Assembly (NCBI RefSeq): GCF_008298035.1
Contig: NZ_CP042910.1
Coordinates: 6,386,001 to 6,450,000 of the forward strand
DNA length: 64,000 nt
DNA from: Gimesia maris
Lineage (GTDB): Bacteria > Planctomycetota > Planctomycetia > Planctomycetales > Planctomycetaceae
Reading direction: 5' to 3'
Shown here: positions 1,959 through 52,460 of the stretch, one piece after another
How positions within the stretch are numbered: the first letter of the stretch is position 1
Layout: every line of letters begins with the position of its first letter
Notes under the pieces: generated by a model
Databases searched by the model: none
Told to the model about the DNA's origin: nothing
The model's input: the letters and a program-made list of their open reading frames with translations, nothing else
Made by a program: the position numbers and the translations under genes

Positions 1959-3955
1959 GGTCGGTTTTCTCCGCCGGGCCTTGAACCTCCTGCCCCACCA
2001 CCGGAAGCACCTGCTCCGCCGCCGGGACCCCGGAGCTTACTGAGTTCTGCTGCGTCCAGAAATCCGTCCTTATTGGCATCCAGTTCATCGAAGCGCTCCT
2101 GCATGCGTTCCGGAGCTTCATCCTTGGAAATTTTTCCATCAGAGTTCTTATCCAGACGCTGCAACATGCCCCCGGCATTTCCACCGGCAGGTTTTTTCTT
2201 CTCTGCCGACTCACCACGAGGTTTTTCACCGCCTGCTTTTCCCGCTGCGGGACCAGCCGACTTCGCATCCACACTACCGGGCCCCTTTTTCTCAGCCTGC
2301 TTTTTCTTTTCCATGGCCAGCTGTTCTTCCAGTTCGATCAGCTCATCGGCAAAGTGGGTCCGCGGGTTCAAAATCACTTCTTCACCGGCTTCGATGCCAG
2401 ACAAAATTTCGATCATGGTATCACTGGCCTGACCGATTTTGACTTCTCGGCGTTCTGACGTTCCATCTGGCATTAAAATAAACATATAACGCTGCTCGCC
2501 AATCGTGATCACCGACTGTACCGGCACCTGTAAAATATCAGGGCGCTGATCAACGCGAATTTCAATTTCGGCTGTTAAACCCGGCTTGAGCTTGGTGATG
2601 TCACCATTGTCAGGAAGAATTCTGATCGTGGCTTTATACTCTTTTAAGTCAGGTCGCATCCAGTTGGAAGAAATCGGCACAGAGGAAACCTGGTCGACAA
2701 TACCTCGATAGAGTTGTTCCGGAAAGGCATCGACGCGGATATCAACAGGCAAGCCTTGATTGATCATACTGATTTTTGATTCGTGAATGCGGGCATCCAC
2801 TTTCATCTGCGAGAAGTCGGGGAGTTGAATAATGGACTGACGTTCCCGGACTTCTGTCCCTTCTTCAATCACATCTTCACCACTGCTGCGACGACCACTG
2901 TCCTGGTTGGCGTAAACGACCTGACCATTTTGTGGTGCAATCAGTTTACAGGCCACGATTTGCTCACGAATACGTTCCAGTTCACTTTTCTCGACTTCAT
3001 AAGTCAACTGGCTGGCTTTGAGGCGTGCATCGAACTGAGCCTGTGTAGCGATGCCCTGACGGATCACACGATCCAGGTTTCGTTTCTTTTCGTCTACGTC
3101 TGCTTCCAGCTCTTTATGTTTGCGGGTCTGTACGTAATCTTTTTCTACTTTGAGATCTTCTTTGGCTATTTCCAGATCAATCTCTGCTTTTACCACATTG
3201 ATGCGGTCGGCCTCGACGTCGTTCTGACTTTTATAACCTTTTTTGGCGATGCGCTTCGAAAACTCAAAGGCTTCTTCGGCGCGCTGCAGGTCCTCACGCG
3301 CTTTGGTAATGGCACCTTCTTTCACGTTGAGGTCTCGCTGAGATTCCCCTTTGAGGAATTTCTCCAGATCGAGTTTCGCCAGAATTAACGCCAGCTCGGC
3401 AGCCGAAGTATCGCTTTCATTTTGCGTCTTCTGGATCTCAACATTTTCCTCGGCCTGCTTCAGCTCTGCTTCAGTTTGTGTCACCTGAATTTGCTGCTGT
3501 TTTTCTTTATCCACCAGCAGGGATGAATCGAGTTCACAAACGACGTCCCCTTTCTCTACCATCGTTCCTTCGGGAACAATACTGAGGATGGTGGTAAAGC
3601 CTTTGACTTTGCTGGACAGGGTCACGTTATTCAAACTGTCAAGCTGACCACGTTCGGTTACCGATACCCGAAACGGCCCCCTGGTTGCCTTGTCCGTAAT
3701 GTAAGTCGTATTCTTCTTTGAACCTGAAGAAAAGACCGAAAGCAGCGGCGTGCGCAATACGGGGACCGTCAGAACAAGTATCGCGCCGACAATCAATGCG
3801 ATGATCAGCAGCTTGGCTTTATTGAGGCGCTTGCTCTTCTTCTGTTTCGGTGAGTGCGTTGAGTTCTGCTGCAGGTCGGAAGACGACTGGTTGGATGTCT
3901 TCTCCTGCAGTGACTCTTGTTTCAGTTGTTCCTGGGGTGGATTGGCGGTGCTCAT
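1955..3955 (-). CDS. Membrane-fusion (HlyD/MacA-like) adaptor with C-terminal EF-hands
   Basis: Periplasmic adaptor that should bridge the ABC permease and the TolC-like protein. I choose ATG 3955 (666 aa); an in-frame ATG at 4018 would add 21 residues. A polar cytoplasmic tail of about 45 residues precedes one membrane anchor (near 48-68), a lipoyl/barrel-sandwich half, a long Lys/Glu-rich coiled-coil hairpin (near 150-330), the second lipoyl half and beta-barrel domains. Unusually, the C-terminus adds two EF-hand loops, DKNSDGKISKDE (602-613) and DANKDGFLDAAE (626-637), then a Gly-rich tail. The 5' end overlaps the TolC-like gene by 137 bp. The adaptor assignment is firm; the EF-hand role is unknown. 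Confidence 0.9.
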   Translation of the reverse strand: MSTANPPQEQLKQESLQEKTSNQSSSDLQQNSTHSPKQKKSKRLNKAKLLIIALIVGAILVLTVPVLRTPLLSVFSSGSKKNTTYITDKATRGPFRVSVTERGQLDSLNNVTLSSKVKGFTTILSIVPEGTMVEKGDVVCELDSSLLVDKEKQQQIQVTQTEAELKQAEENVEIQKTQNESDTSAAELALILAKLDLEKFLKGESQRDLNVKEGAITKAREDLQRAEEAFEFSKRIAKKGYKSQNDVEADRINVVKAEIDLEIAKEDLKVEKDYVQTRKHKELEADVDEKKRNLDRVIRQGIATQAQFDARLKASQLTYEVEKSELERIREQIVACKLIAPQNGQVVYANQDSGRRSSGEDVIEEGTEVRERQSIIQLPDFSQMKVDARIHESKISMINQGLPVDIRVDAFPEQLYRGIVDQVSSVPISSNWMRPDLKEYKATIRILPDNGDITKLKPGLTAEIEIRVDQRPDILQVPVQSVITIGEQRYMFILMPDGTSERREVKIGQASDTMIEILSGIEAGEEVILNPRTHFADELIELEEQLAMEKKKQAEKKGPGSVDAKSAGPAAGKAGGEKPRGESAEKKKPAGGNAGGMLQRLDKNSDGKISKDEAPERMQERFDELDANKDGFLDAAELSKLRGPGGGAGASGGGAGGSRPGGENRP

Positions 3956-7479: not shown

Positions 7480-8904
7480 ATGAAACAATCAGACCGCGCT
7501 CATCACACAGTATATAAATACGCATCCCCCCTTATCGCCCTATTCTTGCTATTAACCTCAGTCGCCGATCTCAACGCAGCCCCCGGTCCGAATGTCATCG
7601 TGATCTACGCTGACGACCTTGGATACGGGGACCTGGGCTGCTTCGGGCACCCGACGATTAAGACGCCGGCCTTGGATCAGATGGCAGCAGAAGGAATGAA
7701 ATTTACCCAGTTTTACTCCGCGGCTCCGGTGTGCACTCCCAGTCGGGCAGCGTTGTTAACGGGTCGCTATCCGATTCGTTCAGGTATGTGCAGCGACAAA
7801 CGGCGCGTCCTGTTCCCCAATTCCGGCGGGGGAATTCCTGCAAGTGAAGTCACACTTGCAGAAGCTTTGAAAGCAGCCGGGTATAAAACAGCTTGCGTCG
7901 GTAAGTGGCACCTGGGTCATCTGCCCCAGTTTCTGCCCACAAACAATGGCTTTGACAGCTATTTTGGAATTCCTTACTCCAACGATATGGATCGAGTCGC
8001 AGACCGAAAGCACGGACGCAGTATTTTCCTCAAGCCGGAAGTCAAGTTCTGGAATGTCCCCCTGATGCGTAATACAGAAGTCGTCGAACTACCGGCTGAC
8101 CAGACCACGATCACGAAACGTTATACGGAAGAGGCTATTAAACTGATTCAGCAGAATAAGCAGCAGCCTTTCTTCATCTACCTTGCACACAACATGCCTC
8201 ATGTACCTCTTTTTCGCTCCCCGGAGTTTCAGGACAAAAGTCGGCGCGGACTGTATGGAGACGTGATTGAGGAAATCGACTGGAGTGTGGGTGAGGTTCT
8301 GAAAGAACTCAAAACACAAGGGCTGGACCAGAATACAATTGTCTGGTTTTGCAGCGATAATGGCCCCTGGCTGATCTTTAATGAGCAGGGAGGGTCAGCC
8401 GGCCTGCTTCGGGACGGGAAGGGCAGTACCTGGGAAGGAGGGATGCGTGAACCAACGATCGCCTGGTGGCCCGGCCACATTCCTTCGGGTTCGGTATCGC
8501 AGGAACTGGGAAGTACAATGGACATCTATACGACATCCATTAAGCTGGCGGGGGGCTCCGTTCCGACCGACCAAGTGGTGGATGGAGTCGATCTCACTCC
8601 TGTATTATTGAAAAAGGAAAACAGCCCGCGTGAGGAACTGGCCTATTATCGAGGCACGAAACTGATGGCGTTTCGAAAGGGCCCCTGGAAAGCACACTTC
8701 ATCACCAAACCTGCTTATGGTCGCGAACCATTTCAGGAACACGATCCACCGGTTTTATACCATCTGGAACATGATCCGTCTGAAAAGTATGACGTGGCCC
8801 AAGACCATCCTGATGTCATCAAGGAGCTCAAAGCTGCCGCAGAACAGCATCATAAAACGGTGAAACCGGTCCCGTCACAGTTGGAAATCCCGTTGCCGAA
8901 TTAG
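7480..8904 (+). CDS. Secreted type I sulfatase (arylsulfatase family)
   Basis: Hydrolyses sulfate esters, probably on algal or other sulfated glycans, in the periplasm or outside the cell. ATG 7480 (474 aa) gives a proper signal peptide ending near LNAAPG; the longer frame from a TTG at 7396 does not. The metal-binding start IVIYADDLGYGDLG and the formylglycine signature CTPSRAALLTGR (Cys at residue 85) are intact, as are GKWHLGH and the later SDNGPW motif. It stands alone, divergent from the MarR operon. Its stop is followed directly by one copy of the dispersed 3' repeat. The substrate cannot be assigned from sequence alone. Confidence 0.93.
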   Translation: MKQSDRAHHTVYKYASPLIALFLLLTSVADLNAAPGPNVIVIYADDLGYGDLGCFGHPTIKTPALDQMAAEGMKFTQFYSAAPVCTPSRAALLTGRYPIRSGMCSDKRRVLFPNSGGGIPASEVTLAEALKAAGYKTACVGKWHLGHLPQFLPTNNGFDSYFGIPYSNDMDRVADRKHGRSIFLKPEVKFWNVPLMRNTEVVELPADQTTITKRYTEEAIKLIQQNKQQPFFIYLAHNMPHVPLFRSPEFQDKSRRGLYGDVIEEIDWSVGEVLKELKTQGLDQNTIVWFCSDNGPWLIFNEQGGSAGLLRDGKGSTWEGGMREPTIAWWPGHIPSGSVSQELGSTMDIYTTSIKLAGGSVPTDQVVDGVDLTPVLLKKENSPREELAYYRGTKLMAFRKGPWKAHFITKPAYGREPFQEHDPPVLYHLEHDPSEKYDVAQDHPDVIKELKAAAEQHHKTVKPVPSQLEIPLPN

Positions 8905-8951
8905 ACTGTGTCCAGTTTTACTGCAAGTTCTTCAGGATCATTGTGACTGAG
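8905..8951 (+). repeat. Dispersed 3'-UTR repeat, copy A
   Basis: Begins with the first base after the sulfatase stop codon. It shares the core GTCCAGTTTTAC and the CTTCAGGA block with copies at 11287 and 52362, all in sense orientation relative to the preceding gene. It is two bases shorter than the others and more diverged at its 3' half. The copy is followed by a weak hairpin (TGTGA at 8942-8946 with TCACA at 8954-8958). Confidence 0.6.
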
Positions 8952-9013
8952 AATCACAGTTCAGAAGACGCGATTGGCTAAGCACAGGCGTTCCCCTGGT
9001 AGACGGGCTCCGC

Positions 9014-9511
9014 TTACCAGTAACAGATATAGCGAGGACCTTCCGGTTCTTCCCTGATGCGAAAATGGATTGCTTTGCTGCTTTTTTCCTGATTGAAGCT
9101 GTTCCATTCCGCACAGAAAAGGGGAAGTTGCGCTGCATCAAATTCAGGCCGTGGTTCCGACAGGCGAAAATAAGCGTCATGAATCAATGCCAGCGCGACC
9201 ATCAGGGGATGCTTATCATTATCAGGCTGGCAAAGCAGCAGTTCCAGCGACTGGGCTGCATGCAGACAGTCTTTGAAACGCGATTCACGCAGACACTCTG
9301 AGGCCATTCGTTCCACATATTTTAACAGATTATCGATGCCATGCTGATTTAAGAGTACGTCTTTTCGGTTTTCAAACTGCAGTGCGATTTCAATCTGCTC
9401 CTGGAGTTCTTCGTCGGTCTCACTGGGAATCGGCATGCGGCCGTAACCGTCGGGGACAATCGACTCGATGGTTTTTATCGTCTGTGCCAGATCGGCAGGA
9501 TTGTGATTCAT
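9014..9511 (-). CDS. Hypothetical cytoplasmic protein
   Basis: 165 aa, mostly alpha-helical by composition, with no signal peptide or membrane segment. I do not recognise the family. The ATG at 9511 opens MNHNPADLAQTIKTIES; the middle is rich in Leu, Glu and His and the end is short and aromatic (GPRYICYW). It is transcribed alone, convergent with the sulfatase and sharing no operon with the lipoprotein gene upstream, from which it is separated by a strong hairpin terminator. Codon use resembles the neighbours, so I take it as a real gene. Confidence 0.6.
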   Translation of the reverse strand: MNHNPADLAQTIKTIESIVPDGYGRMPIPSETDEELQEQIEIALQFENRKDVLLNQHGIDNLLKYVERMASECLRESRFKDCLHAAQSLELLLCQPDNDKHPLMVALALIHDAYFRLSEPRPEFDAAQLPLFCAEWNSFNQEKSSKAIHFRIREEPEGPRYICYW

Positions 9512-9624
9512 TTTTGTTTAACTGCAAAATAGGAAATAGAAATCTTCCGGGACACACGAACCAGGTTCGCTGACGAGTGATTATATATAAAAACCGGAAA
9601 ACGATTCATCCTCTTTTCAAAATA

Positions 9625-9662
9625 AAAAGAACCGATTGAGTCAAAACTCAATCGGTTCTTTT
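9625..9662. terminator. Rho-independent terminator, probably bidirectional
   Basis: Perfect 17-bp stem (9625-9641 with 9646-9662), four-base loop CAAA, A-run on one side and T-run on the other. It lies 32 nt after the stop of the minus-strand lipoprotein gene at 9695, which it most likely terminates. Confidence 0.85.
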
Positions 9663-9694
9663 ATCAATGATCAGTGGCAAACCGGACTGACTGC

Positions 9695-10126
9695 TTATTT
9701 CAGAAAGAAGTCATCTGGTCCTTTGTGCGTGTAGTAAGGATACTGCACGATACCCAGTGGCTGGTTCTGCTGCGGATAGACGGTCGCAGGGGGGACATAC
9801 TTGTATGTCTGATAGTGCTTCGGGCGTTTATTTTGATGGTAGGTATTTTTGTGGCCGGTTTTCCAGCCACCTGCACCCGGTGGGCAATAAGCGCCGCCAT
9901 GGCGACGATGTCCCATCTGCTGAATCGGTGCCTGCTGGCCTGCATACTGTTGATGCATGGCCTGCTGATGCATGGCCTGTTGACGCTTCTGCATCATTTC
10001 AGCCTGTTGCTGCATCAGGAATTCTCCGTCGGCCGACTGACCCCGAATGACCTGGCTATTCGAACATCCCACACACAGTGGTAGAATCAGACAAGCGGCC
10101 ATTTTACAAAACAAGTGAGGCTTCAT
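9695..10126 (-). CDS. Small Gln/His-rich lipoprotein
   Basis: 143 aa from ATG 10126, which has a strong GGAAAGGAAG ribosome site; the frame stays open upstream to 10291 without a better start. A short basic end and hydrophobic stretch lead to PLCVGC, so lipid attachment at Cys21 is likely, though the residue at -3 is Cys rather than Leu. The mature part is low-complexity: an imperfect tandem of QQAMHQQ, then Gly, Pro, Tyr and His-rich sequence ending near YYTHKGPDDFFLK. Such small envelope proteins are common in planctomycetes. No function can be given. A perfect hairpin terminator follows. Confidence 0.65.
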   Translation of the reverse strand: MKPHLFCKMAACLILPLCVGCSNSQVIRGQSADGEFLMQQQAEMMQKRQQAMHQQAMHQQYAGQQAPIQQMGHRRHGGAYCPPGAGGWKTGHKNTYHQNKRPKHYQTYKYVPPATVYPQQNQPLGIVQYPYYTHKGPDDFFLK

Positions 10127-10518
10127 TGGCTTCCTTTCCCCGGTTTTACTGAATTTGAGCGTGTTTCCGTTCGCGCTCGTCATTGGGTATGAGTGATACC
10201 TGCTGAGAATTCTGCGGACCACGATTCGATTGAGATCGTATTTTGTCTGCGAAAGACTTAATTCTTTTATCGGCCATTCCGAGTTAAACAATAGTTAAAA
10301 TCACCAAGAATCGGAAAACCGCGCTAATATTCAAATCTGATCGACCTTGCAGAATCGTTAAAACCGGGATAGATTATCGTGGTTTCCTACTCTATGAGAC
10401 CATAAGCGTAAAATAGATAAAGTGGGTTGTTTGATAGTTTGAGTTTTTTCAGGCAAGACATCGTCTGTGACGAAGTGCTCATATTGCTTTGTTCTTTGCC
10501 AACAAGGGAGTGTTCGGC
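10127..10518. other. Divergent intergenic region
   Basis: 392 bases between the lipoprotein gene and the TIM-barrel gene. It is AT-rich in the middle and should hold both promoters. The only structure I see is a weak inverted repeat AAACC...GGTTT near 10360-10385. I found no RNA gene or coding frame of note. Confidence 0.4.
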
Positions 10519-11265
10519 GTGTTTGTAGCTGCATCATCACGTTGTTTTTCTGATGAATCGTTTGAAGTCAGTTGTGAGCGTCTCACCGATCTGGAGTTCG
10601 ACAAAATCGAAATCTGGATGAGTGAAGAGAGCGACCATCTGAAACCATCTGAAGTCGTTGCGTCACCGGAAGATTTTTATTCACGTTTTCGAGAAGCGAC
10701 CCGGTTGACCCCTATCGCCTTCTGCCTGGAGAACGATATCTCACCGGCCGGGTTCAAATCCTTGTGCAAAGCAGCCAAGATGTTGCGGATTGCACAGATC
10801 ACCATCCCGGCTTCTCCACTGGGGACGCCGTTTAATACGGAAATTGACCGACTCAAAGCATTACTGGAAATTGCCAGCCGCGATGGAATTCGACTTTCCA
10901 TCAAAACCAAAACCGGGCAACTGACCGAAGATCCGAGGACGGCAACAGAACTCTGTCAATCTGTCAAAGGTCTCGGCCTGACGCTTGATCCGAGTTATTA
11001 CACTTGCGGCCCATTCAGTAATACTTCATACGACCTGGTATTTCCGTATGTCTGTCACATTCACCTGCGTGATTCCACCGCCGACCAGATTCAGGTTCCA
11101 GTCGGTCTGGGAGAAATCGATTACAGCCGCCTGATCAGCATGCTGGAACGTCAGGAATATCACCAGTTCCTCTCAGTGGAACTTCTCCCGGAACTGTTGA
11201 AAGATACTGACCGGGCGCTGGAACTGCGAAAATTGAGAATGCTGCTGGAATCCGTTGTGATCTGA
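10519..11265 (+). CDS. Sugar phosphate isomerase/epimerase-like TIM-barrel protein
   Basis: 248 aa member of the AP-endonuclease-2/xylose-isomerase-like TIM-barrel superfamily. I choose the GTG at 10519 (MFVAASSRCFSDESFE) because AAGGGAG lies about 10 nt upstream and this opening is usual for the family; TTG 10489 and GTG 10510 are alternatives. Features seen: an early EIWM strand, SIKTKTGQL, LTLDPSYYTCG, then VCHIHLRDS (His and Asp likely metal ligands) and LSVELLPE with a late Glu. These fit a divalent-metal barrel. The exact substrate is unknown. It is a single-gene unit followed by a copy of the dispersed repeat and a terminator. Confidence 0.8.
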   Translation: MFVAASSRCFSDESFEVSCERLTDLEFDKIEIWMSEESDHLKPSEVVASPEDFYSRFREATRLTPIAFCLENDISPAGFKSLCKAAKMLRIAQITIPASPLGTPFNTEIDRLKALLEIASRDGIRLSIKTKTGQLTEDPRTATELCQSVKGLGLTLDPSYYTCGPFSNTSYDLVFPYVCHIHLRDSTADQIQVPVGLGEIDYSRLISMLERQEYHQFLSVELLPELLKDTDRALELRKLRMLLESVVI

Positions 11266-11286
11266 GCATCTGCCAGTCAGTTTACG

Positions 11287-11335
11287 ACCGCGTCCAGTTT
11301 TACAGTCGCGTCTTCAGGACCATTTGAACCGGGTA
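11287..11335 (+). repeat. Dispersed 3'-UTR repeat, copy B
   Basis: 49 bases starting 21 nt after the stop of the TIM-barrel gene, in the same orientation as that gene. It matches copy C (52362-52410, reverse strand) at 40 of 49 positions without gaps. Shared blocks are GTCCAGTTTTAC, GCGTCT, CAGG and CCATTTG. It lies before the hairpin terminator at 11386, so it would be transcribed as 3' UTR. Confidence 0.65.
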
Positions 11336-11385
11336 CCATAAATTGAGAGACGCTACGGTTCAATGTGATGTGATCTGGAATACAG

Positions 11386-11428
11386 AAACAGACAGAGCCT
11401 TCCGTGACGCGAAAGGCTCTGTCTGTTT
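11386..11428. terminator. Bidirectional rho-independent terminator
   Basis: 16-bp perfect stem, AAACAGACAGAGCCTT (11386-11401) with its complement at 11413-11428, 11-base loop, T-run on the plus side and A-run on the minus side. It separates the convergent TIM-barrel and S1 genes. Confidence 0.85.
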
Positions 11429-16547: not shown

Positions 16548-16621
<74 letters not shown>

Positions 16622-52240: not shown

Positions 52241-52361
52241 CGAAATCTCAATACCTTATGATTGAACGTTTATAAATTCAGTGGTCCGCAAGTGGGAACC
52301 AGTACTGTCAGCGGGAGGCTAGATCGCATCACAATTAACCTTAGCGCCTGTCGATCTAATC

Positions 52362-52410
52362 TACTCGGTCCAAATGGACCTGGAGACGCTGCAGTAAAAC
52401 TGGACACAGT
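52362..52410 (-). repeat. Dispersed 3'-UTR repeat, copy C
   Basis: 49 bases on the minus strand, starting 50 nt after the stop of the glycosyltransferase gene (52461) and in the same orientation as that gene. It matches copy B at 40 of 49 positions without gaps and copy A over the 22-base 5' part almost perfectly. The sequence beyond it on either side is not shared. Confidence 0.65.
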
Positions 52411-52460
52411 CTATACAATACAGAATTCTACGCCCGTTGTTAAGCAGAACGCAGTGACAA

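Follow-up and report, generated by a model that had tools for sequence, protein, structure and literature searches.

The window, a 64,000-nt stretch of the Gimesia maris genome, holds three copies of a dispersed repeat, here called A, B and C, which neighbour genes for a sulfatase (PF00884), a xylose-isomerase-like TIM-barrel protein (PF01261) and a glycosyltransferase (PF00534) (Table 1). A sequence-only reading had described these copies as 47–49 nt long, and our analysis recovered all three where it had placed them, together with the shared sequence GTCCAGTTTTAC and the ungapped agreement of B and C at 40 of 49 positions. Its boundaries covered the left half of the repeat and missed the right half: the full unit spans 94 nt, i.e. 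90 bp between two TA dinucleotides, and over this length B and C are identical at 71, A and C at 60, and A and B at 54 positions. A profile search revealed no fourth copy in the window. As had been noticed, all three copies lie in sense orientation, by the earlier boundaries 0, 21 and 50 nt after a stop codon; measured from the true ends, these distances become -3, 18 and 47 nt, the first value reflecting that the stop codon TAG forms the first three bases of the element. Counting the 12-mer GTCCAGTTTTAC in the window alone, with up to two mismatches, yielded 7 occurrences versus 3.68 expected, a number reached by 7 of 100 shuffles and by itself not clearly beyond chance.

Table 1. Repeat copies and associated features in the window. 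E-values refer to a search space consisting of the window and the fetched own-genome loci.
Feature	Position	Strand	Basis
Decayed MITE copy A	8902..8995	+	Profile match 8902-8979, E 6.3e-11; end 8995 extrapolated from the 94-nt model
TAG, left end of copy A and stop codon of the sulfatase gene	8902..8904	+	Sequence, ORF list
MITE copy B, end dinucleotides eroded	11284..11377	+	Profile match, E 1.9e-23; G014, G006 and G011 without the element there
Intact MITE copy C, including both TA dinucleotides	52320..52413	-	Profile match, E 2.8e-27; site empty in G014, G011 and G006
TA target duplication of copy C, left	52412..52413	-	Empty-site comparison
TA target duplication of copy C, right	52320..52321	-	Empty-site comparison

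Copy number and distribution

Across the 7.82 Mb genome, the exact 12-mer GTCCAGTTTTAC occurs 58 times, compared to 4 times for the reversed control. An alignment (A2) of 56 genome copies with the exact 12-mer, from which the chance 12-mer L003 and window copy A were left out, consists mostly of rows of 94 nt, and its 94-column consensus runs from TAGACTGTGTCCAG to GCGCTCTA. The terminal inverted repeats are imperfect, with 21 of 31 positions agreeing in a hand count on the consensus, and the model also gives weak matches on the other strand of these copies. In its own genome, the alignment-built model finds at least 150 matches, 150 being the number scored; as even the weakest of these has an E-value of 3e-13, the true copy number is probably above 150.

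The element is present in all 17 genomes of the genus (own included) and in none of the 23 genomes from other genera of the family or class, 40 genomes having been searched in total. Within the genus, a genome may contain a single copy or over 100 of them. An exact 21-mer, looked up among 84,980 species, was found in 35 stretches, all of which belong to records titled Gimesia, Planctomycetaceae or Planctomycetota. Four genomes hold one strong copy each, at a common site in G005 and G008 and at other places in G001 and G012. A single ancestral source gene behind these genomes was considered and rejected, since the copies of G001 and G012 sit elsewhere than the site common to G005 and G008.

Orthologous empty sites and target duplication

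At copy C, the orthologous site lacks the element in three relatives (G014, G011 and G006), and the filled site is 92 bp longer than the empty one, corresponding to 90 bp plus a second TA. Copy B is absent from the same three genomes, with clean spacing in G014 and G006, while copy A is absent, judged by spacing, from G009, G012, G016 and G013; it is shared by G014, and the alignments of G006 and G011 run through it. A clean TA duplication could be read at copy C only, the ends of B being eroded and the site of A too diverged. The orthologous empty sites show that the element has inserted. At 94 nt and with at least 150 matches, the repeat is short and numerous and has no room for a transposase gene; it also possesses terminal inverted repeats, a target duplication (clean at copy C) and empty orthologous sites, the features of a mini-transposon (MITE). 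Its insertion at TA is that of elements mobilised by IS630/Tc1-mariner transposases. Tandem arrays occur at two loci of G014, with three MITE copies at L223 and two at L224; the period is 92 bp, and adjoining units have one TA in common.

Target preference, strand and gene context

For position counts we used 155 of the 160 unique own-genome matches, dropping 5 under 40 bits, and relied on gene calls from our own hexamer caller, which within the window chose a doubtful small ORF (2783-3388). As a second genome, G014 was sampled at 70 loci from 150 listed places, 80 of 84 unique matches being counted. In the own genome, 117 of 155 copies occupy a YTAG target (CTAG 46, CTAA/TTAG 71, strands merged), as do 71 of 80 in G014. 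Coding sequence is nearly free of the element, with 1/155 copies lying in an ORF call in the own genome and 3/80 in G014.

The sense placement of all three window copies had suggested strand specificity, to be doubted if copies elsewhere in the genome were randomly distributed with respect to strand. When this was examined with 147 of the 155 copies (excluding the one in an ORF call and 7 lacking a called neighbour), 36 were found between convergent, 23 between divergent and 88 between tandem genes, and the tandem-gene copies showed no strand bias, with 39 in sense and 49 in antisense orientation (p = 0.34). G014 gave the same picture, with 21 versus 23. A stop codon lies within 25 nt on the 5′ side of 34 and on the 3′ side of 36 of the 147 copies. 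Three-of-three sense placement in the window was due to chance. The proposed nearness to stop codons, on the other hand, holds genome-wide: within 50 nt there are 92 stop sides (5′ side of 43 copies, 3′ side of 49) versus 27 start sides (18 and 9). With 35 stop sides (17 + 18) versus 17 start sides (8 + 9) within 50 nt, this bias is weaker in G014.

Stop codons supplied by the element

TAG is read inward at both element ends, and in 42 of 155 own-genome copies an element end forms the stop codon of the neighbouring gene (left end 20, right end 22). Two further copies overlap the stop end of a called gene in another manner, and five extend over a called start. In G014, the element forms the stop in 12 of 80 cases (5 left, 7 right), with three more copies overlapping a stop end in another manner. 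With TAG reading inward at either end, an element landing on the TA within a TAA or TAG stop would restore the stop whichever way round it inserts, and the protein would stay the same.

This prediction can be compared with relatives devoid of the element. For the 16 highest-scoring stop-forming copies, leaving out a tandem-array copy and window copy A, we fused the two flanks and used them as queries against three relatives, reading 30 of 44 matches. At 13 of the 16 sites, the same codon is TAA or TAG in one or more relatives that lack the element, where L006 depends on the reading of an alignment gap and the flank past the stop is unaligned for L143, L164 and L163. Among the loci read, there was no informative relative for L148, L016 and L173. 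Differing relatives comprise two genomes with TGA for L149, and G014, which ends differently for L006. At copy A, relatives without the element end the sulfatase one or two codons further on, so that this copy does not illustrate a stop retained at the same codon.

An IS630 element shares one end with the repeat

A domain search of the 17 genus genomes found DDE_3, the IS630 domain, in nine of them and not in the own genome. G001 and G016 carry a TA-bounded element of approximately 1.03 kb with two overlapping frames, one encoding an HTH and the other DDE_3; the latter passes the IS630 model NF033545 (E 1.2e-41), and the overlap suggests that the transposase may be expressed by frameshifting. 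Both inverted ends of this element match the right end of the MITE, at 25 of 27 positions in G001 and 24 of 27 in G016. The left end of the MITE does no better than background, agreeing with the IS boundaries at 17-18 of 30 positions versus 17-19 for the best chance match, and no IS630 element with the MITE left end was found in the 17 loci compared out of 20 DDE_3 loci (20 of 31 listed matches). The two MITE ends differ, the right one but not the left one, GACTGTGTCCAGTTTTAC, matching the IS630 element; by this comparison, the IS630 element appears to account for only one MITE end. Searching all 17 genus genomes showed that in the own genome the IS630 element exists as relics only. One of these (L229, C1:2649093-2649610) is 518 bp long and has retained both ends while its middle is deleted; by its structure, it would represent an intermediate between transposon and mini-transposon.

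Discussion

Based on the results above, the repeat is very probably a non-autonomous IS630-type MITE that inserts at TA, mostly within YTAG, and whose bias towards gene 3′ ends would be due to selection. It comprises 90 bp between duplicated TA dinucleotides and is nearly palindromic owing to its long, imperfect terminal inverted repeats. From the shared end, we infer that it was mobilised in trans, most likely by a transposase of the IS630 family (Tc1/mariner superfamily), whose element is present in sister species and survives in the own genome as relics only. Copies inside genes would have been lost and copies at or just after stops kept, giving rise to the 3′-end bias. An insertion preference had been put forward as one explanation of the three window copies, and it stands as far as the TA/YTAG target is concerned, while selection probably also shapes which copies survive.

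The other explanation offered at the time, a transcribed role in mRNA stability, as an sRNA target or in 3′ processing, would make the repeat a structured 3′-UTR RNA element. Nearness to stop codons agrees with such a role, as does the consensus folding better than shuffles (z -3.4), with pairs formed in 86% of cells; however, this degree of pair formation is what inverted repeats would give, a near-palindrome folding in any case. Covariation is no higher than in shuffles, 280 of 500 of which reach the observed score, and RNAalifold kept only four consensus pairs with zero compensatory changes. The invariance of GTCCAGTTTTAC in alignment A2 is not special conservation, as it follows from picking exact 12-mers, and 78 full-length copies without GTCCAGTTTTAC are 78-90% identical to the consensus all along. 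Covariation, RNAalifold and the even decay along these copies thus give no sign of selection on RNA structure. At gathering score, Rfam matches nothing in the window besides a distant tRNA gene (16548-16621), and at a relaxed threshold it yields chance-level matches only, at copy B. Strong intergenic inverted repeats, terminator-like by eye, lie at 11386-11428 and about 9625-9663 of the window, the former also matching a microRNA at chance level on each strand. Given further that a strand bias is absent in both genomes and that orthologs exist without the repeat, we regard an RNA element as very improbable. Even less credence is due to the view that the repeat is of REP/REPIN type and owes its spread to a Y1 (RAYT) transposase. 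The repeat is palindromic and extragenic and has GTAG inside its consensus, and GTAG REPs, which likewise supply TAG stops, occur in Planctomycetes, as described in PMC3733652; a TA-bounded unit with a TA target duplication and one end in common with an IS630 element nevertheless speak against this assignment.

It is also conceivable that the mini-transposon is what we describe, and that its transposition machinery prefers stop codons or the 3′ ends of genes, in which case the bias would reflect targeting and not selection. Stop-codon insertions make up 27% of the copies, compared to an expectation of 8.2% from non-coding TA sites weighted by tetranucleotide (4.4% unweighted). The density of insertions peaks at stops and drops with distance: inserted and free YTAG sites number 37 and 29 at stops, 20 and 24 in the next 30 nt, 17 and 40 at 31-100 nt, 42 and 227 at distant and upstream positions, and 1 and 412 in coding sequence, these densities being relative only, since the presence of a copy was the criterion for choosing the loci. 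With all TA sites counted, insertions are more frequent at stops than in the next 30 nt (p = 3e-4); at YTAG sites, however, the two do not differ (p = 0.33), and the same gradient would arise if insertions upstream of genes or in coding sequence were selected against. Moreover, the stop share is lower in G014, whose copies score higher, than in the own genome (12/80 versus 42/155, p = 0.049). Within the own genome, better preserved copies and worse preserved ones have stop shares that are not significantly different (10/44 versus 32/111, p = 0.55). We consider targeting unlikely; a YTAG preference together with purifying selection explains the stop-codon bias best, and we infer selection rather than targeting as its cause. 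More tentatively, the YTAG preference and the inward-reading TAG ends may constitute a safe-landing device, making stops harmless, and perhaps actively favoured, targets in both orientations.

The nearest precedent for the IS630-type MITE of Gimesia is RUP of pneumococcus with IS630-Spn1, a short MITE of intergenic regions that inserts at TA and has terminal repeats similar to those of the IS630 element (PMC2229807, PMC3049150); RUP is over-represented between convergent genes (PMC3049150). At 107 bp, RUP differs from the Gimesia MITE in length, and also in sequence and host, while the latter has its partner in the host as relics only and just one matching end. Stop-codon regeneration, which we describe for the Gimesia MITE, does not appear in the RUP passages of PMC2229807 and PMC3049150. 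ISY100 moves by cut-and-paste into TA with TA duplication (PMC2170065), and it and other IS630/Tc1-mariner elements resemble the MITE in both respects, whereas ISY100 is autonomous and encodes its own transposase. ERIC and Correia/NEMIS are likewise small repeats of bacteria that have terminal inverted repeats, end in TA and duplicate their target (PMC2229807), differing from the MITE in terminal sequences and hosts. According to the same source (PMC2229807), ERIC affects transcript stability in an orientation-dependent manner; nothing of the kind was seen for the Gimesia MITE. The ends of GTAG REPs, 20-40 bp palindromes located close to 3′ ends, often supply the TAG stop of flanking ORFs (PMC3733652) and so set a precedent for repeats that supply TAG stops, as the Gimesia MITE does. 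Among the matches listed from open-licence papers, there was neither a planctomycete IS630 MITE nor a MITE whose insertion at TA regenerates stop codons. GTAG REPs are associated with Y1 transposases and are not known to produce a TA duplication.

What looked like a regulatory 3′-UTR motif thus turns out to be a mobile element, and the orthologous sites show how such an element can live in a gene-dense genome: it lands on stop codons and restores them. If the safe-landing proposal were true, this would allow the MITE to spread into gene 3′ ends in such a genome, turning TAA stops into TAG. With varied copy numbers, filled and empty sites, and a presumed partner that is present in some and lost in others, the 17 Gimesia genomes make insertion preference and selection separable.
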